Origin: Terriglobia bacterium
GTDB taxonomy: Bacteria; Acidobacteriota; Terriglobia; Terriglobales; Acidobacteriaceae
DNA length: 64,000 bases
NCBI GenBank assembly: GCA_020072815.1
Contig: JAIQGE010000007.1
Span: 186,001-250,000, forward strand
Direction of reading: 5' to 3'
Shown: one piece after another, positions 441 through 23,244 of the stretch
Layout of the letters: every line of letters begins with the position of its first letter
Numbering within the stretch: the first letter of the stretch is position 1
Made by a program: the position numbers and the translations under genes
Notes under the pieces: model-generated
Told to the model about the DNA's origin: nothing
Seen by the model: only the letters and a program-made list of their open reading frames with translations
The model's database searches: none

Positions 441-1808
441 ATGCGTAACTGGAAGAGAACGGCAGCACTGTTGGGAGTATGCCTGCTAGTGTTGGTGTTT
501 GTTGCTTTGTCTTGGGGCGCTAAGTCGAAGAAGGGAACCGCGAAGGCATCTGCCAAAGCAGGTTCGCAGCAACAGCAGTCAGCCAATGACCTGCTCATCA
601 GCAACAACATGCTCGAAACGTTCAATCAGGGCAGACAAATCTTTCGCTTCGACACCTTCGGCGACGAGGCCTTTTGGGGCGGCGCTCTGCATCTCCACCA
701 GGCCATTGCCGGCGAAAAGCTGGGAGGCGTAGGCCCTGGCGTGAGCCCAAAAACGGCGCTGGCGGTGGGCTTGAAAGTTGACGTGGATGCTCTGCCTGCC
801 AGCCTCGTGGAACAACTCAAAGCGGGAAAAGTAAATCTCGACGATCCAGCAACCACGCTGGCCTTGCTCAAACTGAACTCTGTGGTTGGGGTGACCGGCT
901 TCTTCAATAAGCAGGACAAGCTGGAGTCGCTCGGGATACAGTGCGCGTTTTGCCATTCCACCGTGGACGATTCTCTTACCGCGGGCATTGGTCATCGCCT
1001 GGACGGCTGGGCCAATCGTGACCTGAATGTTGGCGCCATTGTCTCTTTGTCTCCTGACCTTCAGCCCGTCGCAGATTTGTTGGGTGTGGATGTCCCCACG
1101 GTGAAAAAAGTCCTGGCCAGCTGGGGCCCAGGCAAATACGACGCCGAGCTCGATCAGGACGGCAAAGCGTTCCGTCCCGATGGGAAATCAGCGGCAACAT
1201 TGCTCCCCGCGGCTTTTGGCCAGGCCGGAGTAAACAATGGCACGTATACCGGATGGGGCTCCGTGACCTACTGGAATGCCTATGTTGCCAATACCCAGAT
1301 GCACGGCAAAGGCGCATTTTCCGAACCTTTGCTGACCGGCGGACAGTTCCCGGTGGGCGCCAAAGCTCATTTCAACCAGGTTCGCAACCCTGACGACCGC
1401 ATCACTTCAAAACTTGCGGCCCTGCAGTTTTATCAACTGGCCATCCCCGCGCCCAAAGCGCCCAAGGGTAGCTACAACAATGTGGAAGCTTCCCGAGGCC
1501 AGGCCCTGTTCGCGGGCAAGGCGAAATGCGCCACTTGCCACGTGCCGCCCCTGTACATTGAACCCGGATCGAGCCTGCACACGCCGCAAGAGATCGGCAT
1601 TGACGATTTCCAGTCCTCCCGGTCTCCCACCAAGGAGTACCGGACCACGCCGCTGCGCGGCCTCTGGAGCCACCAAAAAGGCGGGTTCTACCACGATGGC
1701 CGTTTCCCGACACTGGGCGACGTCGTGAACCACTATGACCAGCATTTGAAGCTGGGACTTGCTGAACGGGAGAAGAAGGACCTGGTGGAGTATTTGAAGT
1801 CGTTGTAG
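441..1808 (+). CDS. exported di-haem cytochrome c (peroxidase/MauG-like C-terminal domain)
   Basis: The protein has 455 residues. A hydrophobic signal segment (about residues 8-26, ending near SWGAKS) directs export. Two haem c attachment motifs are visible: CAFCH at Cys168 and CATCH at Cys363. The C-terminal portion reads GGFYHDGRFPTL and then ends in DLVEYLKSL, which is the usual end of the bacterial cytochrome c peroxidase/MauG superfamily. The region between the haems is longer than in classical CcpA, and no clear second-domain peroxidase motif was seen, so peroxidase activity is unproven. An AGAAAGG site precedes the ATG by about 11 bases. It appears to be transcribed alone. Confidence 0.75.
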   Translation: MRNWKRTAALLGVCLLVLVFVALSWGAKSKKGTAKASAKAGSQQQQSANDLLISNNMLETFNQGRQIFRFDTFGDEAFWGGALHLHQAIAGEKLGGVGPGVSPKTALAVGLKVDVDALPASLVEQLKAGKVNLDDPATTLALLKLNSVVGVTGFFNKQDKLESLGIQCAFCHSTVDDSLTAGIGHRLDGWANRDLNVGAIVSLSPDLQPVADLLGVDVPTVKKVLASWGPGKYDAELDQDGKAFRPDGKSAATLLPAAFGQAGVNNGTYTGWGSVTYWNAYVANTQMHGKGAFSEPLLTGGQFPVGAKAHFNQVRNPDDRITSKLAALQFYQLAIPAPKAPKGSYNNVEASRGQALFAGKAKCATCHVPPLYIEPGSSLHTPQEIGIDDFQSSRSPTKEYRTTPLRGLWSHQKGGFYHDGRFPTLGDVVNHYDQHLKLGLAEREKKDLVEYLKSL

Positions 1809-2006
1809 TTCTTCCCCGTTGCAGGACAGCCGTGTAGGTTTCCCGCATTGCGGCGACGCCGGTGCATGTAGCCCGCCAAAACTGGCCGTCGGCCTGTTTG
1901 CTGGTCCTGGAAAATGGCGCTCGGGAATCATCGTAAGACCAAAATGGCCGCGTCTTTCGCCGGCGATGGACGCGCGCAGAAATAACGCTGTAATGGAGGC
2001 AATACC

Positions 2007-2801
2007 GTGAAACGAATTGGAATCATCAGTACAACCGCAGCCCTGTTCCTGGTTCTTGGAATTACTGCTCCGGCTGGAGCCCAAGAGAAAGACAACAAGC
2101 AGGATAAAGATAAGCAGGAGCAGACCGACAAACACGAAAAAGACAGTAAGCCGGAAAAGCAACAACCAGAGGCCAAGCCCGGTAAACAACAGGAGGCAAG
2201 GCCTGAGAAGCCAGAGCCTGCGGCAAAGCCGGACAATCGGCAGGAAGCCAGGCCGGACATGCAGCCTCAGAAGCAAGACCAAGGCAAGCAGGCGGCGCGC
2301 CAGGACGAGCCTAAGCAGCAACCCCAACATCAGCAGGCGCAACCCCAAGAGCAGAGCAAGCAGCCCGCGCGCCAAGAAGAACGGCAGCAGCCTCAGCAGC
2401 AAGCCAGCCGGCCTTCACAGCAAGAGCAACACTCGCACGCCGTGGAACAACGTGGCGCCTGGCAGGAGCATCGCGCGCGCAGCTGGGAGTCGGAGCACCG
2501 CACTTGGCAGCAGCGCGGCGGTTACACCGGCTACCGCATTCCTGAAGCAACTTTCAGCATCTCCTTTGGTGAGGTCCACAGCTTCCGTATCTACAGCTTG
2601 CCTGTGTTGATAGTCGGCGAGTCTCCGCGCTTCCAGTACGGCGGCTTTTGGTTCAGTCTGGTTGACCCGTGGCCGGAAACGTGGTCGGACGATTGGTACG
2701 AAACCGATGATGTGTACATCGACTACTACGGCGATGGGTATTACATGTACAACCGCCGCCATCCCGGCGTTCGCATTGCCATAAACGTCTTCGTCGGCTA
2801 G
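2007..2801 (+). CDS. secreted Gln/Lys-rich protein with Tyr-rich C-terminal domain
   Basis: The protein has 264 residues with a GTG start preceded by TGGAGG at 1994-1999. A signal peptide (residues 1-24, cleavage near PAGAQ) is followed by about 125 residues dominated by Gln, Lys, Glu and Pro that look disordered. The last ~90 residues form a compact, aromatic-rich domain ending in a run with DVYIDYYGDGYYMYN and RRHPGVRIAINV. I have seen this kind of C-terminal ending in acidobacterial hypothetical proteins but know no function for it. The low-complexity part could serve as a spacer in the periplasm or on the surface. Confidence 0.7.
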   Translation: MKRIGIISTTAALFLVLGITAPAGAQEKDNKQDKDKQEQTDKHEKDSKPEKQQPEAKPGKQQEARPEKPEPAAKPDNRQEARPDMQPQKQDQGKQAARQDEPKQQPQHQQAQPQEQSKQPARQEERQQPQQQASRPSQQEQHSHAVEQRGAWQEHRARSWESEHRTWQQRGGYTGYRIPEATFSISFGEVHSFRIYSLPVLIVGESPRFQYGGFWFSLVDPWPETWSDDWYETDDVYIDYYGDGYYMYNRRHPGVRIAINVFVG

Positions 2802-2993
2802 CGGACCACGAACTGCGTATGCTCTGAAATTTCGCTGGACCCTGGGGAAACGGTTTGGGCGAACCGCGACCCCTGGGTTTCGAAACTTCAGAAGCTTTGA
2901 GTGGCAAAGTGAGCACTCCGGACCGAGATCACCCGCATCTAAATGGTCTAAAATAGAACCAAGTCGCGGAAGATCCAGACTGGAATTGAGCTC

Positions 2994-4274
2994 ATGCAAA
3001 ACGCTACGAAATCGTTGATGGCATTGTTAGTGCTCGTTTGTACTCTTAGCGGAGTCAGCAGCGGATATTCCGTGCTGACCCATGAAGAGTTCATTGACTT
3101 GCTCTGGAGTGACCAGATCAAGCCCCTGTTGCTGCAGAGATATCCGGGCGCGTCAGAAGACGACTTGAAAAAGGCCCATGCCTATGCCTACGGCGGATGT
3201 CTCATCCAGGACATGGGATATTACCCGTTCGGGAACAAGCTCTTCAGCGATATGGTCCACTATGTTCGCAGCGGCGATTTTGTCATTGCGCTCCTGGAAG
3301 AAGCCAGCGACATCAATGAATACGCCTTCGCCCTGGGAGCGCTGTCACACTACGCCTCTGACATTACCGGGCATCCCTACGTCAATGCGGCCGTGGCTCA
3401 GAATTTCCCCAAGCTGAAAACCAAGTATGGGCCGTTGGTCACGTACGAGCAAAATCCCAAAGCCCACATTCAAACCGAGTTCGGGTTTGACGTGGTGCAG
3501 GTGTCCAAGCAGCGCTATACGTCAGATGCCTACCACGACTTCATCGGGTTCGAAGTGTCCAAGCCGGTTCTGGAACGCGCGTTTCTCAAGACTTACGGCA
3601 TCAAACTGGGGGATGTTTTCGGCAGCGTGGACCTGTCCATCGGCACCTTTCGCCGCTCCATCAGCGGCGTGATTCCGCAGATGACCCGGGTTGCGCTGCT
3701 CACGAAAAAAGATGAGATGGTCAAAGAAGACCCCACCTTTGCCCGCAAGAAGTTTCTCTACAACCTGAAGCGCAGCGAGTATGAAAAACAATGGGGCAAG
3801 AGCTATCAAAAACCGGGATGCGGAGCGCACTTGCTGTCCTTTTTGTTTATGCTCGTCCCCAAGATCGGGCCATTCAAGGCCATCGGTTTCAAGATGCCCA
3901 GCCCGGAGACCGAGACGCTGTACCTGAAGAGCATCAACAGCACGGTGGACCAGTATCGAATCTATCTTCAGGACGCGAAAGCGGGAAAGCTAACGCTGGT
4001 GAACAAGGACTTCGATACCGGGAAGCTGACCGCGGAAGGCGAATACCGCCTGACCGACGAGGCTTACGGCAAGCTGCTCGACAAGCTGGCGAAAGCCAAG
4101 TTTGCCGACATGCCGCCCGCGCTGCGGGAGAACATCTTGGCCTTCTACCAGAACCCCAATGCCCCCAACTTCAACAAGAAGAAACCGGAAGAGCGGGCCA
4201 AGACACTGAAGAACCTGGAAGAGTTGAAATCGCTGCAGCCGGAGAAACCCCTTCCTAGCCCAACTACACCCTGA
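2994..4274 (+). CDS. exported zinc-dependent phospholipase C-like protein
   Basis: The protein has 426 residues. A signal peptide (residues 1-23, ending SGVSSG) leads into LTHEEFID, then HAYAYGGCLIQDMGYYPFG and SHYASDITGHP. The spaced His and Asp residues follow the pattern of the zinc-dependent phospholipase C (zinc_dep_PLPC) fold, in which they would bind catalytic metal ions. The family cleaves phospholipid head groups, but many bacterial members have unknown substrates. The C-terminal ~200 residues (from about 250) are Lys-rich and not recognised. It stands alone between intergenic stretches. Confidence 0.7.
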   Translation: MQNATKSLMALLVLVCTLSGVSSGYSVLTHEEFIDLLWSDQIKPLLLQRYPGASEDDLKKAHAYAYGGCLIQDMGYYPFGNKLFSDMVHYVRSGDFVIALLEEASDINEYAFALGALSHYASDITGHPYVNAAVAQNFPKLKTKYGPLVTYEQNPKAHIQTEFGFDVVQVSKQRYTSDAYHDFIGFEVSKPVLERAFLKTYGIKLGDVFGSVDLSIGTFRRSISGVIPQMTRVALLTKKDEMVKEDPTFARKKFLYNLKRSEYEKQWGKSYQKPGCGAHLLSFLFMLVPKIGPFKAIGFKMPSPETETLYLKSINSTVDQYRIYLQDAKAGKLTLVNKDFDTGKLTAEGEYRLTDEAYGKLLDKLAKAKFADMPPALRENILAFYQNPNAPNFNKKKPEERAKTLKNLEELKSLQPEKPLPSPTTP

Positions 4275-10113: not shown

Positions 10114-11877
10114 ATGACACCAAGCCTCCAAATCGACGGAAGGAGCTCGGACGCAACCATCTTGACCTCCCTGGACGCAGTCTCCCTGAACACGGGGCCA
10201 TTCCTGCAGGTGCGCGGCCTGTGCGTGGACTACACCGCCGCCAGCGGCAGCATGGTGCACGCGCTGCGCGGCGTGGACGTGGCCATCGCCGAGCAGGAAT
10301 GCGTGGGCGTGCTGGGCGAATCGGGTTCGGGAAAAAGTTCGCTGGCGCAAGCGTTGTTGCGCCTGCTTCCCGCCAACGCCCGCGTCACCGCCGGAGACGT
10401 TCAGTTTCGCGGACGGTCATTGGCGGCGCTATCGCGCGGCGAATTGCGGCGCGTGCGCGGCGCGGAGATCGCGCTGATTTCGCAGGAGCCCGCCCTGGCT
10501 TTGAATCCGGTGTTGCCCCTGGGCCGCCAGATTCAAGACGTCCTGCAGGCGCACTTCAAGCTGGACGAAACCCAGTGCCGCGAGAAAGCCCTGGCCATGC
10601 TGCGCGACGTGGGATTTGACGACCCGGAGCGCGTGCTACGCGCCTATCCCCACCAGCTCAGCGGCGGTGAGCGCCAGCGCGCGGCCATCACCCAGGCGCT
10701 CATCTGCCAGCCGGCCTTGCTCATTGCCGATGAACCTTTGAGTTCGCTGGACGCTGTGACTCAATCTGAAGTCTTGCGGCTGTTGCAGCGCCTGCGTCGC
10801 GAACTGAAGCTGGCCATGCTGTTCATCACCCACGATGCCGGCGTGCTTTCCACACTGGCGGACCGAGTGATCGTCCTGCGCGATGGCCAGGCGGCAGCTT
10901 CCGGCAGCATCGCCGAACTTCGCCGCAACTCCGATCCTTACGTCCGCAGCCTGATGCATCCTGAAGAAACGCTGCATCCTGAAGAAACGCTGCAGCCGGA
11001 AGAAACGCTGCGCGCCGAAAGAACGTTGGCCTTTCCGAGGCCGGCTTCGCGTCTCGCGCCGGGATCAACCAACAACGACGCCGCCACGCCCCTACTGGAA
11101 GTCCTCAGCTTGAGCAAGCAATTCGTTCAGCGCAGCTTTCTCTCCAGCAAAAAGTTTGCGGTGCGTGCGCTCGACAACGTGGACCTGCTGTTGCAAGAAG
11201 GATCGTCAACCGCGGTGATTGGACGGTCGGGTTCCGGCAAATCAACTCTGGCGCGTTGCATCGCCGGCTTTGAGCGCGCCGGCCAAGGTGAAATCCTGTT
11301 TCAAGGCTCAGCGTCGCGGGCATCAACCCCGGAGTTGCGCCGCCAGGTGCAGATGATTTTTCAGGACGCAGGCACCGCGCTGAACCCCGGATTCACTGCG
11401 GCCGAGTTGATTTACGAACCGCTGGTGGTCGCCGGCCGCGGCACAGAACTCGAGCGCCGCCAGCGCGCGGTGCAGTTGTTGGAAGAAGTTGGGCTTGATC
11501 CCGACTGGTACGGCCGGCTGGCGGGCGAATTCAGCGGAGGCCAGCGGCAGCGCTTGGCTCTGGCCCGCGCCCTGGCCGCCGATCCCAAGCTGCTCATCCT
11601 CGACGAATCTTTTTCCGGCCTGGACGTGCCGTTGCAGGCGCAAATGATCAAGTTGCTGCTGGACCTGCAATCGCGTCACGGACTGGCGTATCTGTTTATC
11701 ACCCATGACCTGAATTTCATTTCGCTGTTTGCCCGCGAAGTTGTGGTGATGGATGAAGGCAAAATCGTGGAGCGCACAACGCCGCGACGCATGCGCGAAA
11801 GCGCTGAGCCGGCCACACAATTGCTGGTCCGCGCGGCGGAACGCCTGCATGAGCCCGGCGTGGAGAACCTGGCATGA
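10114..11877 (+). CDS. oligopeptide/dipeptide ABC importer, fused two-domain ATPase (DppD-DppF-like)
   Basis: The protein has 587 residues and two complete ATPase domains in tandem. Domain 1 has Walker A GESGSGKSS at 68-76 and signature LSGGERQR at 182-189. Domain 2 has GRSGSGKST at 370-378 and FSGGQRQR at 473-480. Both have Walker B Asp-Glu motifs (LLIADEPLSS; LLILDESFSG). In most peptide importers these are two genes; here they are one polypeptide. It energises the two permeases encoded next. The ATG has no good ribosome site, and a TTG at 10162 behind GGAAGGAGCT is an alternative start. The gene overlaps the next one by four bases. Confidence 0.9.
   Translation: MTPSLQIDGRSSDATILTSLDAVSLNTGPFLQVRGLCVDYTAASGSMVHALRGVDVAIAEQECVGVLGESGSGKSSLAQALLRLLPANARVTAGDVQFRGRSLAALSRGELRRVRGAEIALISQEPALALNPVLPLGRQIQDVLQAHFKLDETQCREKALAMLRDVGFDDPERVLRAYPHQLSGGERQRAAITQALICQPALLIADEPLSSLDAVTQSEVLRLLQRLRRELKLAMLFITHDAGVLSTLADRVIVLRDGQAAASGSIAELRRNSDPYVRSLMHPEETLHPEETLQPEETLRAERTLAFPRPASRLAPGSTNNDAATPLLEVLSLSKQFVQRSFLSSKKFAVRALDNVDLLLQEGSSTAVIGRSGSGKSTLARCIAGFERAGQGEILFQGSASRASTPELRRQVQMIFQDAGTALNPGFTAAELIYEPLVVAGRGTELERRQRAVQLLEEVGLDPDWYGRLAGEFSGGQRQRLALARALAADPKLLILDESFSGLDVPLQAQMIKLLLDLQSRHGLAYLFITHDLNFISLFAREVVVMDEGKIVERTTPRRMRESAEPATQLLVRAAERLHEPGVENLA
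10957..11028 (+). repeat. in-frame 18-bp tandem repeat in the ATPase linker
   Basis: Four consecutive 18-base units encode HPEETL, HPEETL, QPEETL and RAERTL (residues 282-305) between the two ATPase domains. The first two units are almost identical at the DNA level, which suggests recent slippage expansion. The array should lengthen a flexible acidic linker. Confidence 0.85.
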
Positions 11878-12842
11878 TTCGCTATCTCGCTCTCCGGCTC
11901 GGCCACGGCGTGGTGATTCTGTTCGGCGTGTCCTTGTTGCTGTTTCTCCTGCAGCAAGCGGCTCCGGGCGAGTTCTTCACGGACGCCAAACTGAATCCGC
12001 AGATCTCGGAAGAAACGGTCAAGGCCTTGCGCGCCCAATACGGCATGGACCAACCGCTGCCCAAGCGTTACGCCCGATGGTTGATGTCTGTCGTCAAGGG
12101 TGAGTTGGGATATTCTTTCGCTTACAACGTGTCGGCATCGTCGCTGCTGTGGCCCCGCGCGTTGAACACGCTGCTGCTGACCGTCCCTGCGCTGATCATT
12201 TCTTGGCTGATCGCCGTGCCTCTGGGAGTTCTGTCCGCGGCGTGGCGAGGCGGCTGGCTTGACCGCTTTTTGTCGGCTGGTACCTCGGTCTTGCTGGCCC
12301 TGCCCGATCTTTTGCTGGCTTTGCTGGCGCTGGTGATTGCCATGCGGACCAACAAGTTTCCCGTGGGCGGCATGCATTCCCTCACCGCGCAAGAAATGGG
12401 ATTATGGTCGCGATTCACTGACCTGGGCTGGCACATGGCGCTGCCGGTTGCGGTGATCGTGATCGGTTCGCTCGCGCCCATTCTCCGCCAGGTGCGCGCC
12501 AGCATGAGTGAAGTGCTGGATTCGCCGTTCATGCGCGCGGCGCAAGGACACGGCCTGCGCAAGTTCACTCTGCTGTTCCGCCACGCGCTGCCCGCCGCGG
12601 CAAATCCGCTGATCTCGCTCTTTGGACTCTCCGTTGCCGTGCTGCTCAGCGTCGGACTGCTGGTGGAAGTCGTGATGAGCTGGCCCGGAATCGGGCCGCT
12701 GCTGCTGGAAGCCATTATGGGCCGCGACCTGTTTATCGTGATCGGCGCGGTCATGCTGTCCACGTTGCTGTTGGTGCTCGGCAACCTTTTTGCGGACATC
12801 CTGCTCTATGCCGTGGACCCGCGCATACGGGTGCAAGCATGA
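11874..12842 (+). CDS. peptide ABC importer permease (DppB/OppB family)
   Basis: The protein has 322 residues. An N-terminal helix (VVILFGVSLLLFLLQQAAPGEFF) and five further membrane segments match the DppB/OppB fold. The cytoplasmic coupling loop (RAAQGHGLRKFTLLFRHALP) corresponds to the EAA motif that docks with the ATPase. The start ATG overlaps the ATPase stop in the ATGA arrangement, and the 3' end overlaps the next permease in the same way. This indicates translational coupling and equal production of the inner-membrane subunits. Confidence 0.9.
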   Translation: MIRYLALRLGHGVVILFGVSLLLFLLQQAAPGEFFTDAKLNPQISEETVKALRAQYGMDQPLPKRYARWLMSVVKGELGYSFAYNVSASSLLWPRALNTLLLTVPALIISWLIAVPLGVLSAAWRGGWLDRFLSAGTSVLLALPDLLLALLALVIAMRTNKFPVGGMHSLTAQEMGLWSRFTDLGWHMALPVAVIVIGSLAPILRQVRASMSEVLDSPFMRAAQGHGLRKFTLLFRHALPAAANPLISLFGLSVAVLLSVGLLVEVVMSWPGIGPLLLEAIMGRDLFIVIGAVMLSTLLLVLGNLFADILLYAVDPRIRVQA

Positions 12843-13867
12843 AGCGCTCAACCAAACTCGCGTGGGCCACCTGGTTCCTGGCGGTCTTACTCCTGGTGGT
12901 CATCTTTGCCGGCTTCTTTGCGCCATACAGCTATGACACGCAGGACCGTGACCATCCTTACGCCCGGCCATCGCGCGTGCATTTTGTGGATGGCCAAGGT
13001 AAATGGCACATCCGCCCATTCGTCTTCGCGACAAAAAATCGCGAAGGCAGCCTGACGGAGTACCAGGAAGACCTATCGCGGATTTATCCCGTAAGGCTCT
13101 TTGTCGCTGGAGATTCGTACAAAGTACTTGGGATCTTCCGCGGTCACACGCATCTGTTCGGCGTCGCCGCCCCCGCGTGCATCTTCCTGCTGGGAGCAGA
13201 CGGTTTTGGCCGCGACCAGTTTTCGCGCATGCTGTACGGCGGTCAGGTATCGCTGTTTGCCGGCATTCTGGCCGCGGTTTTTTCCGCAGCCGCGGGGCTG
13301 TTCCTGGGGATGGTCGCTGGAATGTTCGGCCGTCCGCTGGATGACATCATCATGCGCGTGGGCGAAATCTTCATCGCGCTGCCCTGGCTGTACCTGCTCA
13401 TCTCTGTGCGCGCGTTTCTTCCTTTGCAGATGAGCGCGGTGGCGGCGTTCACTTTGGTGGTGATGGTGATCGGCCTGGTCGGCTGGGGACGTCCCGCGCG
13501 CCTGGTGCGCGGCATTGTGCTGAGCGCGCGCGAACGCAATTTCGTTCTGGCGGCGCGCGGATTTGGCGCCGGCAAGTTCTACCTGATGCGCCGCCACATC
13601 CTGCCCGCGGCCATGGGCGTTGTGCTCACGCAGATGGCGCTGCTGGTGCCTTTGTTTATGATGGCGGAAGTTACTCTTTCGTATCTGGGGCTTGGTGTGG
13701 GCGAACCGTTTCCCAGTTGGGGCAACATGCTGGCCAACGCACAGCAGTTTCACGTAATTTCATCTTATTGGTGGATGTTATTGCCGGGTCTGGCTCCGGC
13801 GCCGGTCTTTTTGGCATGCCAGGCCCTGGCCGATGTGTTTCAGGAAAAACTGAAAACGGCAGTCTAG
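12839..13867 (+). CDS. peptide ABC importer permease (DppC/OppC family)
   Basis: The protein has 342 residues. After the first membrane helix (LAVLLLVVIFAGFFAPYSYD) comes a periplasmic segment of about 90 residues that is longer than in the smallest DppC proteins. The ABC permease core follows, with the coupling loop AARGFGAGKFYLMRRHILP. It pairs with the DppB-like protein to form the channel for peptides. It overlaps the preceding gene by four bases and is followed after 25 bases by the solute-binding protein. Confidence 0.9.
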   Translation: MKRSTKLAWATWFLAVLLLVVIFAGFFAPYSYDTQDRDHPYARPSRVHFVDGQGKWHIRPFVFATKNREGSLTEYQEDLSRIYPVRLFVAGDSYKVLGIFRGHTHLFGVAAPACIFLLGADGFGRDQFSRMLYGGQVSLFAGILAAVFSAAAGLFLGMVAGMFGRPLDDIIMRVGEIFIALPWLYLLISVRAFLPLQMSAVAAFTLVVMVIGLVGWGRPARLVRGIVLSARERNFVLAARGFGAGKFYLMRRHILPAAMGVVLTQMALLVPLFMMAEVTLSYLGLGVGEPFPSWGNMLANAQQFHVISSYWWMLLPGLAPAPVFLACQALADVFQEKLKTAV

Positions 13868-13892: not shown

Positions 13893-15650
13893 ATGCCTGA
13901 GACGATCAAGCGGACCGCACTATGTGCACTAGCCGGACTGGCTTTGGCGGCAGCTTTCTGCTCGCCTGCGGTTGGTCAAGACGACATGCTTCGCCCGCCT
14001 GCGGAAACCGGACGGCAGGGCGGACGTTTGGTTGTCGCCCAGTCATCTGAACCCAAAACCCTCAATCCAGTTACCGCTCTGGACCAGCCGTCGCGCGACG
14101 TGATTCGCCGTCTGACGGCCGATCTGGTCCACATTGAGCGCGACTCGCAGAAGACCGTCCCGGCGCTAGCCAAATCCTGGACCGCCACGCGCGACGGCAA
14201 GAGCCTTACCGTGCAGCTTCGACGCGGCCTGCGATTTTCTGACGGCGCTCCTTTTGATGCCGACGACGTTGTCTTCTCCTACAAGCTCTATCTCGACGAG
14301 AAAATACATTCGCCGCAGCGCGACCTGCTGATCGTCGCCGGCCAGCCCATGCGGGTGGAGAAGCTCGGGCCGTATTCGGTCCGCTTCTCCTTTGCCGCTC
14401 CCTACGCCGTGGCCGAACGAGTGTTTGACAGCCTGGCCATCCTGCCGCGTCACCTCTTGGAAAAGGACTATCAGGAAGGTGGAATCGCCAAAGCCTGGAC
14501 CCTGGCCACATCGCCCGACAAAATTGCCGGACTCGGTCCTTTCCGGCTCAAACAGGTGGTCCCTGGCGAGCGAATCGTCCTGGAACGTAATCCCTATTAT
14601 TGGAGAAAGGACGCGAAAGGCCAGAAGCTGCCGTATCTGGACGAACTGGTCTTCCTCACCGTGCCCAGCCGCGACGCACAAGTGGCGCGCTTCCAGGCGG
14701 GTGAGACCCAGGCCATCAGCCCGCTCAGCGCGGAAAATTTTGCCGCCCTCGAACCGGAGCAGCAGGCCCGTCACTACAAGCTGTTCGACGTTGGTCCCGG
14801 CATGGAATACAACTTTCTTCTGTTCAATTTGAATGCCGGTCTGGAAAGCAAGCTTCCGGTGGTCGCCCGCCGGCAAAAGTGGTTTCTTGATCCGCGTTTC
14901 CGCCAGGCGGTGTCCGCAGCCGTGGACCGCGCGGCGCTGTTGCGGCTGGTGTATCGCAACCGTGGGGCGGCGCTGGCCACCAACGTCACCGGCGGCAACA
15001 AGCTTTGGATCAATTCAGCGCTGAAACCTACAGAACACTCTGAAGCCGCGGCGCGCAAGCTCCTGCAGGCCGCTGGCTTCTCCTGGAATCGAGACGGCGG
15101 GTTGCTCGATTCCTCGGGGCAGGCGGTGGAGTTCAGCATTTTGGTTAGCTCCAGCAACGTCCAGCGCAGCCAGATGGCGACGTTAATTCAGGACGACTTG
15201 AAAAAACTGGGGATGAACGTACACGTAGTGGGACTGGAGTTCCGCTCCATGGTGGACCGCGTTTTGCAGTCGCACGACTACGAAACCGCGGTGATGGGGC
15301 TGGGCAGCGGCGACGCCGATCCCAACTCCGACATGAGCTTTTTGCTTTCCAGCGGACAAAGCCATCTCTGGAGTCTCGATGAAAAGCAGCCGGCCACGCC
15401 CTGGGAAGCTGAGATTGACAAACTGATGCAGCAGCAGCTGGTCACCGTGAATTATCGCCAACGCAAGAAACTGTATGACCGGGTGCAGGAGGTCATGGCC
15501 GCGGAGATGCCGGTGGTCTTCCTGGCCAGCCCGAGTATCCTGGTGGGAGCGTACCAGGACTTGGGTAATGTGCGCCCAGCTATAATTGATAACTATATTC
15601 TCTGGAACGCAGACGAACTTTTTTGGCACACCCCCACTGGAAAACATTGA
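13893..15650 (+). CDS. peptide ABC importer solute-binding protein (SBP family 5)
   Basis: The protein has 585 residues with GGAG at 13881 before the ATG. A signal segment (LAGLALAAAFCSPAVGQ) directs it to the periplasm; the Cys there does not sit in a good lipobox. The mature part shows the family 5 pattern: PKTLNPVTALDQPS, LRRGLRFSDGAPFDADDVVFSY, ERNPYYWR, DPRFRQAVSAAVDRAALL. It would capture peptides and deliver them to the permeases encoded upstream. The sigma-factor gene starts only six bases after its stop, so transport and regulation genes are probably on one transcript. Confidence 0.9.
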   Translation: MPETIKRTALCALAGLALAAAFCSPAVGQDDMLRPPAETGRQGGRLVVAQSSEPKTLNPVTALDQPSRDVIRRLTADLVHIERDSQKTVPALAKSWTATRDGKSLTVQLRRGLRFSDGAPFDADDVVFSYKLYLDEKIHSPQRDLLIVAGQPMRVEKLGPYSVRFSFAAPYAVAERVFDSLAILPRHLLEKDYQEGGIAKAWTLATSPDKIAGLGPFRLKQVVPGERIVLERNPYYWRKDAKGQKLPYLDELVFLTVPSRDAQVARFQAGETQAISPLSAENFAALEPEQQARHYKLFDVGPGMEYNFLLFNLNAGLESKLPVVARRQKWFLDPRFRQAVSAAVDRAALLRLVYRNRGAALATNVTGGNKLWINSALKPTEHSEAAARKLLQAAGFSWNRDGGLLDSSGQAVEFSILVSSSNVQRSQMATLIQDDLKKLGMNVHVVGLEFRSMVDRVLQSHDYETAVMGLGSGDADPNSDMSFLLSSGQSHLWSLDEKQPATPWEAEIDKLMQQQLVTVNYRQRKKLYDRVQEVMAAEMPVVFLASPSILVGAYQDLGNVRPAIIDNYILWNADELFWHTPTGKH

Positions 15651-15656
15651 AGCTGA

Positions 15657-16253
15657 ATGGACGACAACGCCAAAGAGATATCCATACCCACGCCTAAGGA
15701 CGCAGCGGCGGAAGATGAGCGGCTGGTACAGGAGTGCTTGAACGGCGATGAGCGGGCGTGGAACCGTCTCATTGAGAAATACAAACGGCTGATCTACTCC
15801 GTTCCCGTCAAGTACCGGATGAGCCCTGACGACGCCTCCGACGTCTTTCAGAACGTGTGTGTGGACCTGTTCACCAATCTTTCCAAACTGCGGAAGGTTG
15901 AGTCCCTGCGTTCCTGGCTGATCACCGTGGCCACCCACAAGTGTTTTCATTTCAAGAAACAGCAGCGCGGCCAGGACGTGGAGCTGGACGCCATGGAGCA
16001 GGAGATGGCGGAAGAAATCGCCCCGGCGCCGGAAGTGCTGCAGGAAATCCAGGAAGAACAGGCGGTGCGCGACGCCATCGTCAAGCTCTCGCCGCGGTGC
16101 GCTCAACTGGTCCAGCTCCTCTTCTTTGAGCAGCCGCCGGTGCCTTACAACGAAGTGGCGCAGAAACTGGGACTGGCCACCGGGTCCATCGGCTTTATCC
16201 GCGGCCGCTGCTTGAATCGCCTGCAAAAGATCCTGGCGGAGCTGGGGTTCTGA
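15657..16253 (+). CDS. RNA polymerase sigma-70 family factor (ECF-like)
   Basis: The protein has 198 residues. Region 2 reads ERAWNRLIEKYKRLIYSVP and DDASDVFQNVCVDLFTNL, then LRSWLITVATHKCFHFKKQQ. Region 4 is a helix-turn-helix (PYNEVAQKLGLATGSIGFIRGR). A linker rich in Glu separates them, and region 3 is absent, as in ECF factors. It would direct core polymerase to a specific promoter set. The gene lies six bases after the peptide-binding protein and two bases before the TPR-CHAT protease, an arrangement implying that the three are made together. No classical membrane anti-sigma gene is adjacent. Confidence 0.85.
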   Translation: MDDNAKEISIPTPKDAAAEDERLVQECLNGDERAWNRLIEKYKRLIYSVPVKYRMSPDDASDVFQNVCVDLFTNLSKLRKVESLRSWLITVATHKCFHFKKQQRGQDVELDAMEQEMAEEIAPAPEVLQEIQEEQAVRDAIVKLSPRCAQLVQLLFFEQPPVPYNEVAQKLGLATGSIGFIRGRCLNRLQKILAELGF

Positions 16254-16255
16254 TC

Positions 16256-19126
16256 GTGGACCGCATTGGCAGTCCGGCGGAGCTGGAACCATGGATCGTC
16301 GAAGCCTCAGAGCTTTCTGATCCCGCGCAGCGTCGCGCTCTGCTGGCGCAGCGCCCGGACTTTCTCAGCCGCGAAACTTTCGACCAACTGTATCGCGGGG
16401 TCATCGCCAACCTTCGCGCCAACCTGGAGCGGTCAGAGCGCCTGGCGGAAGCCTGCCGCTGGATCGCCGTGGAACTCAACGATCCTTACATTTCCGCCAA
16501 GTGCGCCCGCGCCACGGGCCACGTGGTCTCGCTCAAGGGCAACTATCGCGAGGCCATCAAGGAGTATGAGACCTCCATTGCCGGGTTTGACGCGCTGGGG
16601 TCTGATTTTGACGCGTCGCTGACCATCAATGGAGCGCTGCAAAGCCTGATTTACGATGGTCAATATGAACGGGCTCTGGCCCTGGGCGCCAAGGCCCGCG
16701 CGGTGTTCGCGGCGCACGGCGACCAATTGCGACTGGCACGACTGGACAGCAACGTTGCCAACATCTATTACCGCCAGGACCGCTTCCGCGAAGCCCAGGA
16801 GCTTTATGAGAGCGCGTACCGCGACTTCCTCACCTGCGGCGAGCCCATGGACATCGCCATCGTCCTCAGGAACCTTGCGGTTTGCTACATTAGCCTGAAC
16901 GAGTTCGCGCTCGCCCAGGAAACCTACCAACTGGCGCGGCGGCATTGTGAACAGCATGGCTTTTCGCTGCTGGTGGCGGAAGCCGATTACAACATTGCTT
17001 ATCTCCACTATCTCAAGGGCGAATACCTGCGCGCTATCGAGATGTATGACCAGACGCGCAACTTCTGTCTCACCCTGGGCGACAAATATCATCAGGCGCT
17101 CTGCGATCTGGACCAATCCGAAATCTACCTGGAGCTGAACCTGACCGAAGGCGGCACCGAGCTGGCACAACAGGCGTTTCTGGCGTTCCGCCAACTGGGC
17201 ATGCGTTATGAGGCGGCCAAAGCGGCCACGTTTTCCGCCATCGCCGTCAGCCAGCAGGGGCATTATCGCCAGTCGCTGCGCGTCTTTGATCAGGCGCGCG
17301 CGCTGTTTATCGAAGAGCTGAACCGGCTCTGGCCGGCGCTGATTGATCTCTACAAGGCGCTGGTGCTTTACGAGGCCGGACAAGACGACGAAGCTGAAGA
17401 CCTGGCGCTTTCGGCGCTGGAGTACTTCGGTCCGTCCTTGCTGCCGGCCAAAGCCGCGCTGTGCGAATTGCTGCTGGCGGCCATTGAAGTCCGCGGCTCA
17501 GACGCCGACGAAGCCCGCCGTTATTGCAGCTCTGCGCTGTCCCGCTTGCTGCATATTGATTCCCCGGCCACTTACCAGGCGTACTTCATGCTGGGCCAGG
17601 CGGAAGAAACCAGCGGCAACACTGAGCTGGCCCGCCAGGCGTATGAGAAGGCCTATCACAAGCTGGAAGACCTGCGCAGCCACCTGGGCAAAGAAGAGCT
17701 GAAGATCGCGTTTCTCAAGAACAAACTCACGGTTTACGAAGGATTGGTCGTAACTTCTCTGGCCGTGCACTCGCTGGCCTGCACCGAGCACGACACGTTC
17801 GAATACATAGAGCAGGCCAAATCGCGCAGTCTGGCGGACTTGATCGCTTTCCGCGCTTCCACGCTCACCGGCCGCACGCTGGAACAGTCGCCGGCCATGG
17901 CCCAGTACCGCGACCTTCGCCAAAAACTGAATTGGACCTATCACCAAATCGAGTTGCAGGAACTCAGTCCGGAAGGGGACACGCACCAAGCGCGCATCGC
18001 GCAGCTGCGTCTTCAGGGCCGCGAATACGAAGACGCCCTGGTCAAGGCCTTTTCTCACCTGCAAAGCACTGACGTTGAGTTCGCCAATCTGCAGAATGCC
18101 AAGACTATTTCCGCCGCCGAGCTGCAGCGCGTCCTGCCCCCCAATACCCAGATGTTGGAGTTCTACCTGGCGCGCAACCAGTTTTACGTATGCCTGGCTT
18201 CGCGCGACCGCCTGAAGATTCTGCCGGTGGCCGATGCCGGCGCCGTGCGCACCAAGCTCCGCCTGTTGCAGTTGCAACTGGCGAAATTCCGCCTGGGCGA
18301 TGACTACATCAAACCCCGCGAAAAGTCGCTCTTACAGGCCACGCAAGCCCATCTGGAGGAACTGTACGATCTGCTCATCCGGCCCATCCGCAGCCAGCTC
18401 CAGGCGGCGAATCTGGTGATAGTTCCCCACAGCTTTCTGCACTACTTGCCGTTCCATGCATTGTCGGACGGTCGCCGCTGTCTGATTGATGATTTTTCCA
18501 TTTCGTATGCTCCCAGCGGCAGCATCTTTGCTATTTGCCAGGAAAAGGCTTTGCCGGAAGGACCGGGAGAGACCCTGGTGCTGGCCGTTCCCGACGCGCG
18601 CGCTCCCTATATAGAAGAGGAAGGCCGGTTCGTTGCCGCCAGCATGGACAACGCGCGGCTGTTCCTGGGCGAAGAAGCCACCGAGGAGCGTTTGCGCACC
18701 TACGGTTCGCAGAGCCGCTACATTCATATCGCTACGCACGGCTATTTTCGCCAGGACAATCCCATGTTCTCCTCCATCCGGCTGGGCAACTCGCTGCTGA
18801 GCTTGTTTGACCTTTACCAGTTGCAGTTCAATGCGGAACTGGTCACCCTGAGCGGCTGCGGGACCGGGATGAACGTGGTCATTGGCGGTGATGAACTGAT
18901 CGGCTTGGTGCGCGGGCTGTTGTACGCCGGCGCCCAGACCCTGATGGTGAGTTTGTGGGAAGTTCACGATCAAAGCACGGCTGAATTCATGAGGGATTTC
19001 TATGCCGCGTATCGCGAACTGCCCAACAAGGCACAAGCCTTGCAGCGTGCGGTTGCTAATCTAAGGCAAAAGCGGCCTCACCCTTACTATTGGGCGGCGT
19101 TTTGCTTGGTTGGTAAGTTTTCTTAA
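16256..19126 (+). CDS. TPR-CHAT domain protein, predicted caspase-like cysteine protease
   Basis: The protein has 956 residues with a GTG start two bases after the sigma-factor stop. Residues ~1-500 are helical TPR repeats that form a protein-binding scaffold. A coiled linker follows to about 620. The C-terminal CHAT domain carries the caspase-type dyad: His828 in IATHGYF and Cys868 in LSGCGTG, then GLLYAGAQTLMVSLW and PYYWAAFCLVG. Both catalytic residues are present, so it is probably active. CHAT proteins are known in separase, gingipain-like and CRISPR-associated proteases, where TPRs choose or gate the substrate. Here the substrate is unknown; candidates are the sigma factor upstream or the CxxC protein downstream. 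There is no signal peptide, so it should be cytoplasmic. Confidence 0.85.
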   Translation: MDRIGSPAELEPWIVEASELSDPAQRRALLAQRPDFLSRETFDQLYRGVIANLRANLERSERLAEACRWIAVELNDPYISAKCARATGHVVSLKGNYREAIKEYETSIAGFDALGSDFDASLTINGALQSLIYDGQYERALALGAKARAVFAAHGDQLRLARLDSNVANIYYRQDRFREAQELYESAYRDFLTCGEPMDIAIVLRNLAVCYISLNEFALAQETYQLARRHCEQHGFSLLVAEADYNIAYLHYLKGEYLRAIEMYDQTRNFCLTLGDKYHQALCDLDQSEIYLELNLTEGGTELAQQAFLAFRQLGMRYEAAKAATFSAIAVSQQGHYRQSLRVFDQARALFIEELNRLWPALIDLYKALVLYEAGQDDEAEDLALSALEYFGPSLLPAKAALCELLLAAIEVRGSDADEARRYCSSALSRLLHIDSPATYQAYFMLGQAEETSGNTELARQAYEKAYHKLEDLRSHLGKEELKIAFLKNKLTVYEGLVVTSLAVHSLACTEHDTFEYIEQAKSRSLADLIAFRASTLTGRTLEQSPAMAQYRDLRQKLNWTYHQIELQELSPEGDTHQARIAQLRLQGREYEDALVKAFSHLQSTDVEFANLQNAKTISAAELQRVLPPNTQMLEFYLARNQFYVCLASRDRLKILPVADAGAVRTKLRLLQLQLAKFRLGDDYIKPREKSLLQATQAHLEELYDLLIRPIRSQLQAANLVIVPHSFLHYLPFHALSDGRRCLIDDFSISYAPSGSIFAICQEKALPEGPGETLVLAVPDARAPYIEEEGRFVAASMDNARLFLGEEATEERLRTYGSQSRYIHIATHGYFRQDNPMFSSIRLGNSLLSLFDLYQLQFNAELVTLSGCGTGMNVVIGGDELIGLVRGLLYAGAQTLMVSLWEVHDQSTAEFMRDFYAAYRELPNKAQALQRAVANLRQKRPHPYYWAAFCLVGKFS

Positions 19127-19170
19127 GGAAATAAGTAAAGCTTTGTAAAGTCTGAGATATCTATATTTTT

Positions 19171-19257
19171 AGCCCTGCTTCTGACTCTTGTATTACAGAA
19201 GCAGGCTCATCCGTCGACTGCTAAAAAGGGGAACACAGACCCGGAAGCTGTGTTCCC
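19171..19257 (+). terminator. two hairpins between the CHAT gene and the CxxC-protein gene
   Basis: The first hairpin pairs AGCC.TGCTTCTG (19171-19183) with CAGAAGCAGGCT (19195-19206). The second has a perfect ten-base stem, GGGAACACAG (19229-19238) with CTGTGTTCCC (19248-19257), followed by TTTGGATTT. They may end the long operon or act as a leader or processing structure for the gene at 19288. The T tract is weak. Confidence 0.55.
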
Positions 19258-19287: not shown

Positions 19288-19923
19288 ATGCCTCAAGCCG
19301 CGCGCCATTTCGATATCACTGAGTGGGCTGATTACGCCAGGAACCTGGCTCCGCCCGAGCAACAAGGGCAGATGTTGGCCCATCTTGCCGCTGGATGTTC
19401 CAAATGCGGAAAGATTGAGCAGCTATTTCTGAAATTTGCAAAAGTCTGCGCCCGTGAAGGCGCATACCAGATCCCGGAGAGCACAGAGCGGCAGGTGAAA
19501 GCTCTGATCAGCATAGGAAGGGAGCCGCGTCGCTCCCCGCTGCAGCGCATGTTCGCCTCTCTGGTGTATGACAGTTTGAATGATCCCCAGCCGGTAGGAG
19601 TCCGCGGAACGCACCAGATCAGCCGCCAAGTGCTGTTCCATGCCGGCGAGTACTCGGTTGATCTGCGCTTTGAGCATGAAAAAGGCTCGGCCAGCATGGT
19701 TCTGGTAGGACAGATCTCCAACCAGAACGCCCCCGAGGATCCCATGGCCCACCTGCCGGTGATCCTGTTGGCAGGCCAGCGCGAATTGGCCCGCTCCATG
19801 AGCAACTCATTCGGTGAATTTCAGATGGAGTACGTCCCCGATACTGATCTCCGTCTGCTGGTGCCGCTGGAATCTCACGGGCAAGAATTAGAAGTCTTGC
19901 TGGGGCAGGCGCCGCAGGCTTAA
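19288..19923 (+). CDS. small cytoplasmic protein with CxxC knuckle, possibly regulatory
   Basis: The protein has 211 residues with AAGAAG just before the ATG. The N-terminal ~70 residues (TEWADYARNLAPPEQQGQM, then HLAAGCSKCGKIEQL) have the look of a zf-HC2-like anti-sigma zinc finger: an acidic helix followed by a His and a CxxC pair. The rest is a predicted beta domain (RQVLFHAGEYSVDLRFEHEK, MVLVGQISNQ). No membrane segment or signal peptide is present. Its place between an ECF-sigma/CHAT pair and two secreted subtilases suggests a soluble anti-sigma or adaptor, which is an inference from position and the Cys/His cluster. It ends 44 bases before the first subtilase. Confidence 0.65.
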   Translation: MPQAARHFDITEWADYARNLAPPEQQGQMLAHLAAGCSKCGKIEQLFLKFAKVCAREGAYQIPESTERQVKALISIGREPRRSPLQRMFASLVYDSLNDPQPVGVRGTHQISRQVLFHAGEYSVDLRFEHEKGSASMVLVGQISNQNAPEDPMAHLPVILLAGQRELARSMSNSFGEFQMEYVPDTDLRLLVPLESHGQELEVLLGQAPQA

Positions 19924-19967: not shown

Positions 19968-21410
19968 ATGAGGACACTGCGTCTTTTCGTCATTTTCGGC
20001 GCGTTGCTGGCGCTCGCGTTACCCGCGACGGCACAGACCAGCTACGTCCTCACCATCCCCGCCACCGTTGACGTCCAGAGTTTCGCAGCCAGCCACGGCC
20101 TGACCGTGGTCCGGGAAATCCATGATGGGACGAACTGTGTCTATGTTGTGACTTCCGCCTCCTCGGATGTGACGGGCGTTGAAACCGAAGTGGAAACAGA
20201 TGTTCGGGTCACCAGCTTTGAGGCCAACGCGCCCATCTCCCTGCCCGAGACCCTGAACGGCCTGACCGGTCCAGTCCTGACCCAGTCTACCGCTGGGATT
20301 CTTGAAACTCTGCCCGGTCGCACCCTGGTCACGTTTTTCGGCAGCACGGTACCCAGCAACTACATTACACAGACCGCCACCACGATTATTCGGCTCCCGG
20401 ACGCGCGCGCGGCGTATCCAGTCACCGGCGCTGGGATCATCGCCATCATTGATACCGGCGTAGACCCGCAGCATCCCGCTCTGGCCGGCGTCCTGGTGCC
20501 GGGGTTCGATTTCGTCCACAACACCAGCGGCATTCCTTCTGAGTTCAGTGACGCCGCCCTGATCAACCAGTCCACGGCCGGGATCCTGGAACAGTCCACC
20601 GCCGGCATTCTGGAGCAGTCCACCGCCGGCATTCTGGAAGCACAGAACGTAGTTCCCTTGAATTCGTACACGGCCGCCATTCTGGACCAGTCCACGGCCG
20701 GGATTCTGGAAGGTTTGGTTCCGCAGGATTTCGGGCATGGCACCATGACCGCGGGTGTTGCGCACCTGATTGCGCCTACGGCGAAGATCATGCCGCTCAA
20801 AGCCTTCACGATTGACGGCATGGCCACCGCCAGCGACATCATCCGCGCTATCTATTTTGCGGCTGACAACGGCGCCAACGTCATCAGCATGAGCTTCAGC
20901 ATGCCGGCCAATTCGCCCAGCCTGCAGGCTGCAATTCAGTACGCGCTGGGCAAGAACATCGTAGTGGTTGCCTCATCCGGCAATGACGGCCTGAAGACCC
21001 TGGTTTATCCGGCAAGCATTGGCGGAGTACACGGCGTAGGCTCTACCACCAACGCTGATGGCCGCAGCGCGTTTTCCAATTATGGCTCCGGAGTTGTGCT
21101 CCTGGCTGCGCCCGGTGAAGGCGTGATTACCACCTATCCCGGCGGCAACTACGCTGCGGGATGGGGGACTTCTTTTAGCGCTCCCATGGTGGCTGGAGCG
21201 GCTTCGCTGGTCCTCCAGGCGCGTCCGGCCAGCAAGCCGGGTGACGTGCTCAACGCTCTTTCCAAGGCCAAGCAGATCAGCGATATGGGCTACGGCCGTA
21301 TTGATCTCTATCAGGCCCTCAACAGCGTCATAGGCGGCTCGTCATCAATCTCTGGGACATCCGGAAGCAACACCAGCGGCAGTACCAGCGGTGGCTCCTC
21401 CAAGCCGTAA
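19968..21410 (+). CDS. secreted subtilisin-like serine protease with QSTAGILE array (copy A)
   Basis: The protein has 480 residues from the ATG at 19968 (GGAAG upstream; a GTG 15 bases earlier is less likely because it would precede the signal peptide MRTLRLFVIFGALLALALP). After a ~80-residue prodomain, the S8 triad is Asp162 (IIDTGVD), His257 (GHGTMTAG) and Ser402 (GTSFSAP). The octapeptide QSTAGILE occurs at 106-113, just after the prodomain, and again at 201-208, 209-216, 217-224 and 241-248, in the segment between Asp and His. The end is a Ser/Gly/Thr-rich tail. It is probably exported and active. A close relative follows at 21847. Confidence 0.9.
   Translation: MRTLRLFVIFGALLALALPATAQTSYVLTIPATVDVQSFAASHGLTVVREIHDGTNCVYVVTSASSDVTGVETEVETDVRVTSFEANAPISLPETLNGLTGPVLTQSTAGILETLPGRTLVTFFGSTVPSNYITQTATTIIRLPDARAAYPVTGAGIIAIIDTGVDPQHPALAGVLVPGFDFVHNTSGIPSEFSDAALINQSTAGILEQSTAGILEQSTAGILEAQNVVPLNSYTAAILDQSTAGILEGLVPQDFGHGTMTAGVAHLIAPTAKIMPLKAFTIDGMATASDIIRAIYFAADNGANVISMSFSMPANSPSLQAAIQYALGKNIVVVASSGNDGLKTLVYPASIGGVHGVGSTTNADGRSAFSNYGSGVVLLAAPGEGVITTYPGGNYAAGWGTSFSAPMVAGAASLVLQARPASKPGDVLNALSKAKQISDMGYGRIDLYQALNSVIGGSSSISGTSGSNTSGSTSGGSSKP
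20568..20711 (+). repeat. 24-bp coding minisatellite encoding QSTAGILE units (subtilase A)
   Basis: Six octads in strict register: QSTAGILE three times, AQNVVPLN, SYTAAILD, then QSTAGILE. The second and third DNA units differ by a single base, indicating recent duplication. The single extra copy after the prodomain is at 20283-20306. The array is in the segment between catalytic Asp and His. Confidence 0.9.
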
Positions 21411-21846
21411 TTCCGCCCCTTCACGTTGACCTTCTCCGCGCTTTTGTGACCACTTTTGCTCACCTGCACAAATTTATTAGCGTCTTTAATCCACTGGTAA
21501 CCTTAGGACACTTGAACCGGCGAAAAAAGGCCAATCTTGGATCAGTCCACCTTCCCCAAAGTCTTCCGGCAAGCCCAGCGTCTGCTGACGATATGTCAAC
21601 AAACCATGCATAAGACCTTTAAAAACATAAGCAATCAGTGGTTATTCGTAAAATACTTTAACCGCTGATTTCTAGTTGCAGTTTCGTCTCCAAAGCGTCC
21701 CTGAGTTTGCCCAACATTAAAGCCGAAACAAGGGCTGGACACTGTGGCTATACTGTCCTCGCATCAAGGCCAGCCTTCTGAGAAGGCAGGGTTTTACCTT
21801 TCGGCGTCGCGACGGAACGACCGCCGGAAAAGAAGATTGACGGAAA
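21411..21846 (+). other. intergenic region between the two subtilase genes
   Basis: This 436-base stretch is more AT-rich than the genes, especially at 21590-21670. No gene or strong terminator is seen. It probably carries a separate promoter for the second subtilase. Confidence 0.4.
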
Positions 21847-23244
21847 ATGTTGAAACACAGATTATTGCTAACTATTTTGCAGGCTGTTTGCTTGCTGGGG
21901 AGTGCCTCCCTGCTGGCCCAGGACAAGTTTGTCCTGGTGACCTCGCCATCCAAAGTGAGCGATGTGTGCGGCAAACATGGCTTGACACAAGTTTCCCAGG
22001 TCTCCAGCAGCTCCTCCGCCGGGGTTTACCTGGTTTCCACCTTTTCCGTTGATCCCACGATAGCTACCGATTCCTCCGTCACCAGTTTCGAGCCCAACCG
22101 GGCCCTGGGCGTACCTGAGCTCTCCGGCGCTACCATCGCAAGCCTGACCCAATCCACCGCCGGAATCCTTGAGACCCTGCCGGGACGGACAGTGGTCAGC
22201 TACTTCGGCGCCAGCGTACCGAGTAACTATGTGCAACAGACAGCGGCCGCGATCGTCCGCCTGTCAGACGCGCAGGGCTCCAAGCTTAGCGGCACAGGAA
22301 TTGTGGTTGCGATTATTGATACCGGCGTGGACCCCAGCCATCCTTTGCTGAGTCCGGTGCTCGTCCCTGGATTTGATTTCACGCGTAACCTGAGCGGCTC
22401 AGCGTCTGAGCTGCTTGATCTGGACCCAACGGTGGCCGCGTCCTTGACCCAGTCCACCGCGGGCATCCTGGAAGGCCAGAACCTGGTCCAGTTAAATGCG
22501 TCCACGGTGGCCATCCTGACCCAGTCCACCGCCGGCATCCTGGAAGGCATCGTTCCCAAGGCCTTCGGCCACGGCACCATGACGGCGGGTTTGGTCCACC
22601 TGGTCGCGCCTGGCGCAAAGATCATGCCGCTGAAGGCGTTCAGCGCAGACGGCAACTCTGACCTGTTTAACATTATCCGCGCCATCTACTACGCTGCCGA
22701 CCACGGGGCCAACGTCATCAGCATGAGCTTTGAGATCACCCAGAGCTCGCCTGCGCTGCAGAACGCCATCCAGTACGCCTTGAGCAAGAATGTGGCGATT
22801 GTGGCTGCCTCCGGCAACGATGGCCAGCAGATTCTGGTATATCCCGCCGCTTACGGCAATGTGATCGGCGTAGGTTCCACCAGCAACCAGGACGCCAAGA
22901 GCGTCTTTACCAACTTCGCCACCAACGCTATTTACGTAGCGGCTCCGGGAGAAGGCGTAATCACCTCGTATCCTGGCGGCAATTACGCTGCGGGATGGGG
23001 GACTTCGTTCAGCGCCCCTCTGGTGGCCGGCGAAGCGGCGATGCTGCTGCAGGCGAAGCCGACAATGCATCCTGGTGACGTCGCCAACGCGGTATCTCAT
23101 GCCCAGGCAGTGCAGCAGATGGGCCACGGACGAATTGATCTCTGCCAGGCGTTGATCGGCTTGAACCTGGGACCGTGTCCCGCGAGCTCAACCACAACTT
23201 CCAGCACAAGTGGCAGCACGTCGGGCGGGTCTACCGCGCCGTGA
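21847..23244 (+). CDS. secreted subtilisin-like serine protease with QSTAGILE array (copy B)
   Basis: The protein has 465 residues. A signal peptide (MLKHRLLLTILQAVCLLG, cleavage after SLLAQ) leads to a prodomain and the S8 triad: Asp158 (IIDTGVD), His242 (GHGTMTAG) and Ser387 (GTSFSAP). QSTAGILE is at 102-109, 202-209 and 226-233, with GQNLVQLN and ASTVAILT between the last two. This is the same octad plan as in copy A but with two fewer units. The proteins match along most of their length, so they are tandem duplicates with divergent prodomains. The tail is Ser/Thr/Gly-rich. A strong terminator follows. Confidence 0.9.
   Translation: MLKHRLLLTILQAVCLLGSASLLAQDKFVLVTSPSKVSDVCGKHGLTQVSQVSSSSSAGVYLVSTFSVDPTIATDSSVTSFEPNRALGVPELSGATIASLTQSTAGILETLPGRTVVSYFGASVPSNYVQQTAAAIVRLSDAQGSKLSGTGIVVAIIDTGVDPSHPLLSPVLVPGFDFTRNLSGSASELLDLDPTVAASLTQSTAGILEGQNLVQLNASTVAILTQSTAGILEGIVPKAFGHGTMTAGLVHLVAPGAKIMPLKAFSADGNSDLFNIIRAIYYAADHGANVISMSFEITQSSPALQNAIQYALSKNVAIVAASGNDGQQILVYPAAYGNVIGVGSTSNQDAKSVFTNFATNAIYVAAPGEGVITSYPGGNYAAGWGTSFSAPLVAGEAAMLLQAKPTMHPGDVANAVSHAQAVQQMGHGRIDLCQALIGLNLGPCPASSTTTSSTSGSTSGGSTAP
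22450..22545 (+). repeat. 24-bp coding repeat encoding QSTAGILE octads (subtilase B)
   Basis: Four octads in register: QSTAGILE, GQNLVQLN, ASTVAILT, QSTAGILE. This matches the last four octads of copy A unit by unit. A further copy lies at 22150-22173. Confidence 0.9.

Follow-up and report, generated by a model that had tools for sequence, protein, structure and literature searches.

The window, the whole stretch of DNA analysed here, comprises 64,000 nucleotides of contig JAIQGE010000007.1 from a Terriglobia bacterium (Acidobacteriota), and carries two tandem genes for S8 subtilases in which one octapeptide, QSTAGILE (hereafter the octad), recurs in several copies. Protease A (19968..21410; all features described below lie on the forward strand, counted from the first nucleotide of the window) has a signal-peptide-like N-terminal segment and a prodomain, and gave pro-subtilisin fold matches. 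Its paralogue, protease B (21847..23244), bears the same octad. The two proteins, of 480 aa and 465 aa, respectively, contain the motifs DTG, GHGT and GTSFS in this order and match the Peptidase S8 profile PF00082 (3e-36 for A, 1.8e-38 for B). A pattern search recovered five copies of QSTAGILE in protease A and three in protease B, at the positions and in the octad order given by the first-pass annotation of this DNA. Copy A1 (20283..20306) follows the prodomain; copies A2, A3 and A4 (20568-20591, 20592-20615 and 20616-20639) form an array of tandem 24-bp units (20568..20639; Tandem Repeats Finder score 116); and copy A5 (20688..20711) lies before the catalytic His. The copies in protease B are B1 (22150..22173), B2 (22450..22473) and B3 (22522..22545). 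Across the 5.29-Mb genome, a degenerate octad pattern hit exactly these eight sites and no others, and the reversed control pattern gave 0 hits.

The catalytic Asp, His and Ser motifs, the prodomain and the fold are shared with thermitase-like and mycosin-like S8 subtilases. However, the window proteases differ from these enzymes by the multiple identical octads in the loop between the catalytic Asp and His and at the prodomain junction. The first-pass annotation had called such an insertion unfamiliar in subtilases, and the octad was not found within a named S8 subfamily. No NCBIfam S8 model reached its curated cut-off for A or B (mycosin TIGR03921, 142.6 bits vs a cut-off of 278.75; QhpE NF049966, 78.8 vs 165; PatA TIGR03895, 74.8 vs 421), and the Pfam assignment was the general PF00082 only. 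Some octad subtilases of relatives (L115, L116, L087) have long C-terminal extensions with calcium-binding-like or Ig-like repeats.

The subtilase genes stand at the end of the gene order OppDF-OppB-OppC-OppA-sigma-TPR-CHAT-ZF-S8, which recurs in the majority of loci and in different families of Acidobacteriota. In the window, it begins with an oligopeptide importer, consisting of an OppDF-like fused double ATPase (10114..11877; two ABC_tran stretches), an OppB-like permease (11874..12842; BPD_transp_1), an OppC-like permease (12839..13867; BPD_transp_1, OppC_N) and an OppA-like peptide-binding protein (13893..15650; SBP_bac_5, 1.4e-79). These are followed by an extracytoplasmic function (ECF)-type sigma factor (15657..16253; Sigma70_r2, 6.9e-11) and by a caspase-like TPR-CHAT protease, our candidate receptor of the octad (16256..19126; CHAT PF12770, 7.6e-63; TPR_12, 2.5e-20). 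The tetratricopeptide repeats (TPRs) of the latter were modelled by AlphaFold 2 (AF2) at a predicted local distance difference test score (pLDDT) of about 90, and its predicted catalytic residues H828 (IHIATHGY) and C868 (LSGCGTG) are invariant in the alignment. Between TPR-CHAT and protease A lies a small CxxC protein, ZF (19288..19923; 211 aa), a kept neighbour that contains HLAAGCSKC and is a candidate cytoplasmic anti-sigma factor or CHAT substrate. It has no Pfam match, and hence no match to a curated anti-sigma zinc-finger profile.

The relatives taken into the comparison are Acidobacteriota, and 75 family proteins with a repeated octad form the basis of the octad counts. These multicopy proteins carry 30 octad variants, which vary by lineage, for example QSTTSILD, QSTSTVLE, QSVTPILE, QSTVAFLD and QSTGVILD, as well as QRTVAVLD, QSTVGVVD, QHSIAMVD and QYAMAVVN. 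Gln at position 1 is invariant among the 75 proteins except in L162 (G742), where two copies of ESTAAVLD have Glu instead. Octad identity is 0.98 within a protein vs 0.60 between genomes. All octad-like copies are identical in 67 of the 75 proteins, against a mean of 1.2 and a maximum of 7 after shuffling copies among proteins, which excludes chance as the source of identical copies; 69 of the proteins lack any copy with one or two mismatches. The identity extends beyond the single protein. In all seven genomes with tandem proteases, those of one locus share one octad. In six of them the A and B proteins belong to separate clades, whose split is older than the diversification of the genus, and yet the octads of A and B change together. 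Moreover, orphan ZF-S8 genes that have no CHAT gene nearby (G206, G103, G145) carry the octad of a CHAT-bearing locus at another place in their genome, which points to a partner acting in trans.

Copying of DNA is not the main cause of this identity. Codon identity between octad copies within a gene is 0.44-0.48, where codon usage predicts 0.38-0.40. For copies in different genes of the same genome, the observed value is 0.44 and the expected one 0.36, with identical 24-mers in 0 of 114 comparisons. Synonymous codons are thus nearly random, and copies switch between the codon families TCN and AGY for serine and CGN and AGR for arginine. The identity therefore appears to be kept mostly at the protein level, and a common partner of all copies would be the simplest reason for it. 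According to the first-pass annotation, the array evolves by unit duplication. This may hold for A3 and A4, which differ by a single base and may stem from a recent duplication, but the codon identities show that it is not the family-wide mode.

The octads probably lie in disordered segments. In the AF2 model of protease A (predicted template modelling score 0.74, alignment of 15 sequences) most of the core was well predicted, while residues 94-117, which include A1, and 199-251, which include A2-A4, had a pLDDT below 50. These two stretches hold all octads of the protein; the octad segments had a mean pLDDT of about 25-45 and no beta rungs. Furthermore, the strict eight-residue register read from the window by the first-pass annotation is lost in relatives, where spacings between octads are not fixed to multiples of eight (17, 18 and 23 residues are common) and where a protein may have up to 15 copies. 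The low pLDDT, the variable spacing and the 15 copies fit flexible cargo rather than a solenoid. The record of 15 copies is held by L081 / L149 (G035), where QSTGAILD stands mostly at the prodomain junction and the repeated spacers end in RKQFGSARGxHRN. In non-octad flanks ahead of an octad, position -2 is aliphatic in 146 of 150 cases and position -1 is mostly N, T, S or D. This flank resembles the octad's own end, such that both borders end in L, V or I followed by D, E, N, T or S. Since the borders look alike, one specificity could cut both.

Which protein might read the octad is suggested by covariation. Over 28 loci, and with all other proteins and regions controlled for, the TPR residues 41-220 of TPR-CHAT diverge in parallel with the octad (partial r 0.42, permutation p 0.0005). 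No such relation holds for the remaining TPR-CHAT regions or for the S8 core (partial r for the S8 core 0.13, not significant), and ZF shows a weak one (r 0.13-0.19; r 0.13 has p 0.045). When Opp proteins were included, in a smaller set, TPR residues 41-220 came first (r 0.31) and OppA second (r 0.28), while OppC did not track the octad. Within TPR-CHAT the signal lies in the helices A of TPRs 2-5 (residues 77-213, 16484..16894; means 0.075-0.105), above the helices B (permutation p 0.003). In TPR proteins, the concave surface that binds ligands is lined by helices A, and the sequence and fold matches of TPRs 2-5 include the peptide-binding TPR proteins kinesin light chain and LGN. These patterns suggest that the octad is read by TPR-CHAT, a protein other than the protease that carries it. 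The recognition tag proposed in the first-pass annotation thus pointed in the right direction, except that the tag appears to be read by another protein.

A single residue pair sharpens this picture. Residue 122 of TPR-CHAT, which sits in helix A of a TPR, covaries with residue 8 of the octad. In the initial alignment the pairing had no exception in 49 loci (43 D-R, 6 E-I/L). Predictions set before the sequences were read held in 7/7 further loci: the loci with a D octad, G187, G228, G206:C93, G108:C231 and G467, all had R122, and those with an E octad had I122 (G748) and V122 (G518), the latter aliphatic, although I or L had been predicted. Combined, D occurs with R in 48/48 loci and E with I, L or V in 8/8, or 56/56 in total. 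On a tree that left this region out, both residues change 5 times each, agreeing in all 56 loci, and of the 3,890 column-position pairs with three or more changes each, no other is perfect. The rule can be tested, and the most useful pair for experiment is the window, with Glu-8 and Leu-122 (codon 16619..16621), and its close relative G187, with the contrasting Asp-8 and Arg-122. The CHAT protein G626:C53 has Ile at residue 122, although the subtilase of that genome (L180) lacks octads.

Taken together, we consider it fairly probable that TPR-CHAT has the octad as its ligand, a linear peptide carried in multiple identical copies in disordered S8 segments and serving as an autoinducing signal, either as a pheromone or for self-monitoring. 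This suggests a previously undescribed peptide-signalling system in soil Acidobacteriota. We infer the following course of excision, import, binding and CHAT-dependent release of the sigma factor. The S8 protein would be exported via its signal peptide, and proteolysis, by itself or by another enzyme, would free the octapeptide at the look-alike borders ahead of Q1 and behind residue 8. The Opp importer encoded in the operon would bring the octapeptide back into the cell, where TPRs 2-5 of cytoplasmic TPR-CHAT would bind it on their concave side, with residue 122 contributing to the recognition of residue 8. This binding would switch the CHAT protease, which would act on the CxxC protein and thereby free the ECF sigma factor; the latter would drive ZF-S8 and yield more peptide. 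The first of these steps are modelled on RRNPPA systems, the last on Csx29-Csx30-CASP-sigma. A more far-reaching version is conceivable, to which we give slightly less than an even chance: a new class of peptide communication in Acidobacteriota, in which an active secreted protease is itself the pheromone precursor, frees the octapeptide by its own proteolysis and has it read by TPR-CHAT after Opp import, with release of sigma and with coevolved lineage dialects. Communication between cells and self-monitoring of secreted proteolysis would leave the same traces in the sequence.

Several observations weigh against this interpretation. The boundary 41-220 was picked after a scan of the same data, which makes its p value optimistic, and Mantel permutations correct for phylogeny only in part. 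The choice of the 8-122 pair likewise came out of a scan of these data; its 4-5 independent changes are too few for a paired sign test to reach 0.05, and it came only 12th (p 9e-4) in a multi-state co-change scan. In G206:C93, G467 and G518, CHAT and S8 are on different contigs and their pairing was assumed. Furthermore, L174 (G625) and L180 (G626) keep the operon neighbours without recognisable octads, 8 of the 75 family proteins contain imperfect copies, and the orphan ZF-S8 loci L135, L138 and L143 lack the promoter-like element described below. As the AF2 input held only 15 sequences, the low pLDDT might partly reflect a shortage of data.

The covariation would fit docking of the whole protein equally well. 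In that case an S8 protein that is un-exported or retained would bind TPR-CHAT through its octads as substrate or partner, with neither release nor import of a peptide. The TPR helices A and the 8-122 pair fit octad binding in any context, and the TPR-CHAT protease Csx29 cuts a loop in a protein substrate (PMC10028731). Yet, the signal-peptide-like N-terminus and the prodomain of S8 imply export, and docking leaves the conserved Opp operon, the OppA signal and the many tandem copies unexplained; we therefore regard it as unlikely, though worth keeping in mind. An autoprocessing role, as considered in the first-pass annotation, would have the copies match the subtilase's own specificity, drifting between lineages. 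The position of octad 1 at the prodomain junction and the aliphatic-then-polar pattern at the borders agree with this. Self-cleavage may indeed be the means of release, but alone it fails to explain why the octad covaries with the TPR helices A but not with the S8 core, or why many members have octads solely in the Asp-His segment (a copy ahead of Asp occurs in 29 of the 75 proteins). As a full account it seems improbable.

Two further explanations were weighed. A solenoid or stacked beta element might favour identical rungs, as the first-pass annotation also suggested, and the spacers in the window are multiples of eight while the array includes degenerate octads. However, the model without beta rungs and the irregular spacings in relatives rule out such a structure as far as we can judge, and it would not explain why A, B and unlinked orphan genes have identical octads; we attach very little weight to it. 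Plain DNA homogenisation by slippage or gene conversion is equally far-fetched as the main cause. The near-identity of A3 and A4 and a codon identity slightly over expectation point to occasional copying, but the codon evidence given above, both within and between genes, contradicts it as the force that keeps the copies alike.

Bacillota are known to signal by peptides that are imported and read by TPR receptors. Our proposal resembles RRNPPA quorum sensing of that phylum (Rap, NprR, PlcR, AimR, PrgX, Rgg) in its secreted short linear peptide, Opp import, cytoplasmic TPR receptor and lineage-specific pairs of peptide and receptor, where import and binding in the octad system are themselves inferred. 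RRNPPA precursors sometimes contain several identical peptide copies, up to six (PMC9765709), and the peptides are matured by extracellular proteases (PMC11343458). In contrast, the octad precursor is a complete subtilase instead of a small propeptide, and the TPR protein ends in CHAT (PF12770) without a helix-turn-helix (HTH) match, unlike HTH-TPR or Rap proteins. Output would also run via an ECF sigma factor, and the phylum is Acidobacteriota. Because these first two differences concern defining features of RRNPPA, we do not file the octad system as a member, even though it would work in a similar way. Comparable signalling in Acidobacteriota was not found in the open-access literature searched.

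The other half of the proposed pathway recalls CASP/Craspase (Csx29 TPR-CHAT, Csx30 sigma inhibitor, CASP-sigma), where, as in the octad operon, TPR-CHAT stands beside a sigma factor and a small candidate sigma inhibitor. The CHAT domain shows homology to 7zoq and 8d9f, and a fold match to Csx29 (8eey_B); the CxxC protein would correspond to Csx30 in place and candidate role. The trigger of Craspase is RNA through Cas7-11, whereas the candidate trigger here is a peptide. The neighbouring genes scanned were Opp, sigma, CHAT, ZF and S8, with no search aimed at cas genes. Many identical peptides per precursor are familiar from yeast alpha-factor and FMRFamide precursors, in which they are held alike by the receptor and not by DNA copying; the octad precursor differs in being itself a protease, in a Gram-negative bacterium. 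If the proposal is true, soil bacteria that are abundant and little understood use peptide dialects specific to each species, and the CHAT proteases found outside CRISPR would have a defined type of trigger.

Searches for other contexts gave little. All open reading frames of 20 long loci and of the window yielded no convincing octad copy in a neighbouring protein, as a shared cleavage site or anti-sigma tag might have produced. PADLOC returned generic subtilase and IetS matches only, instead of a known defence system, Rfam gave no match to a known RNA element, and plasmids contained no match at E 1e-30. A viral origin was also considered and rejected; IMG/VR yielded a single octad-bearing family member. 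This contig, L210, carries an octad subtilase with two copies of QSAVAVLD adjoining a phage terminase-like gene (3-1235 and 1354-3069). It is probably a prophage border, and a phage-borne copy is possible.

Upstream of ZF, the window contains a bipartite promoter-like element, TATATTTTT-N13-ACTCTT (19162..19189), which is conserved upstream of ZF-S8 throughout the phylum. The 437-bp region between A and B (21410-21847) has no such element. Of 63 loci, about two thirds have the pattern CCTATATTTTT-N12-14-CYCTTAT upstream of ZF-S8. In its own genome the exact pattern has one site (19162-19189), with 1 and 1 for the reversed controls. The element may be the promoter recognised by the ECF sigma factor. 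In the window, its second box lies within the palindrome CTGCTTCTG...CAGAAGCAG.

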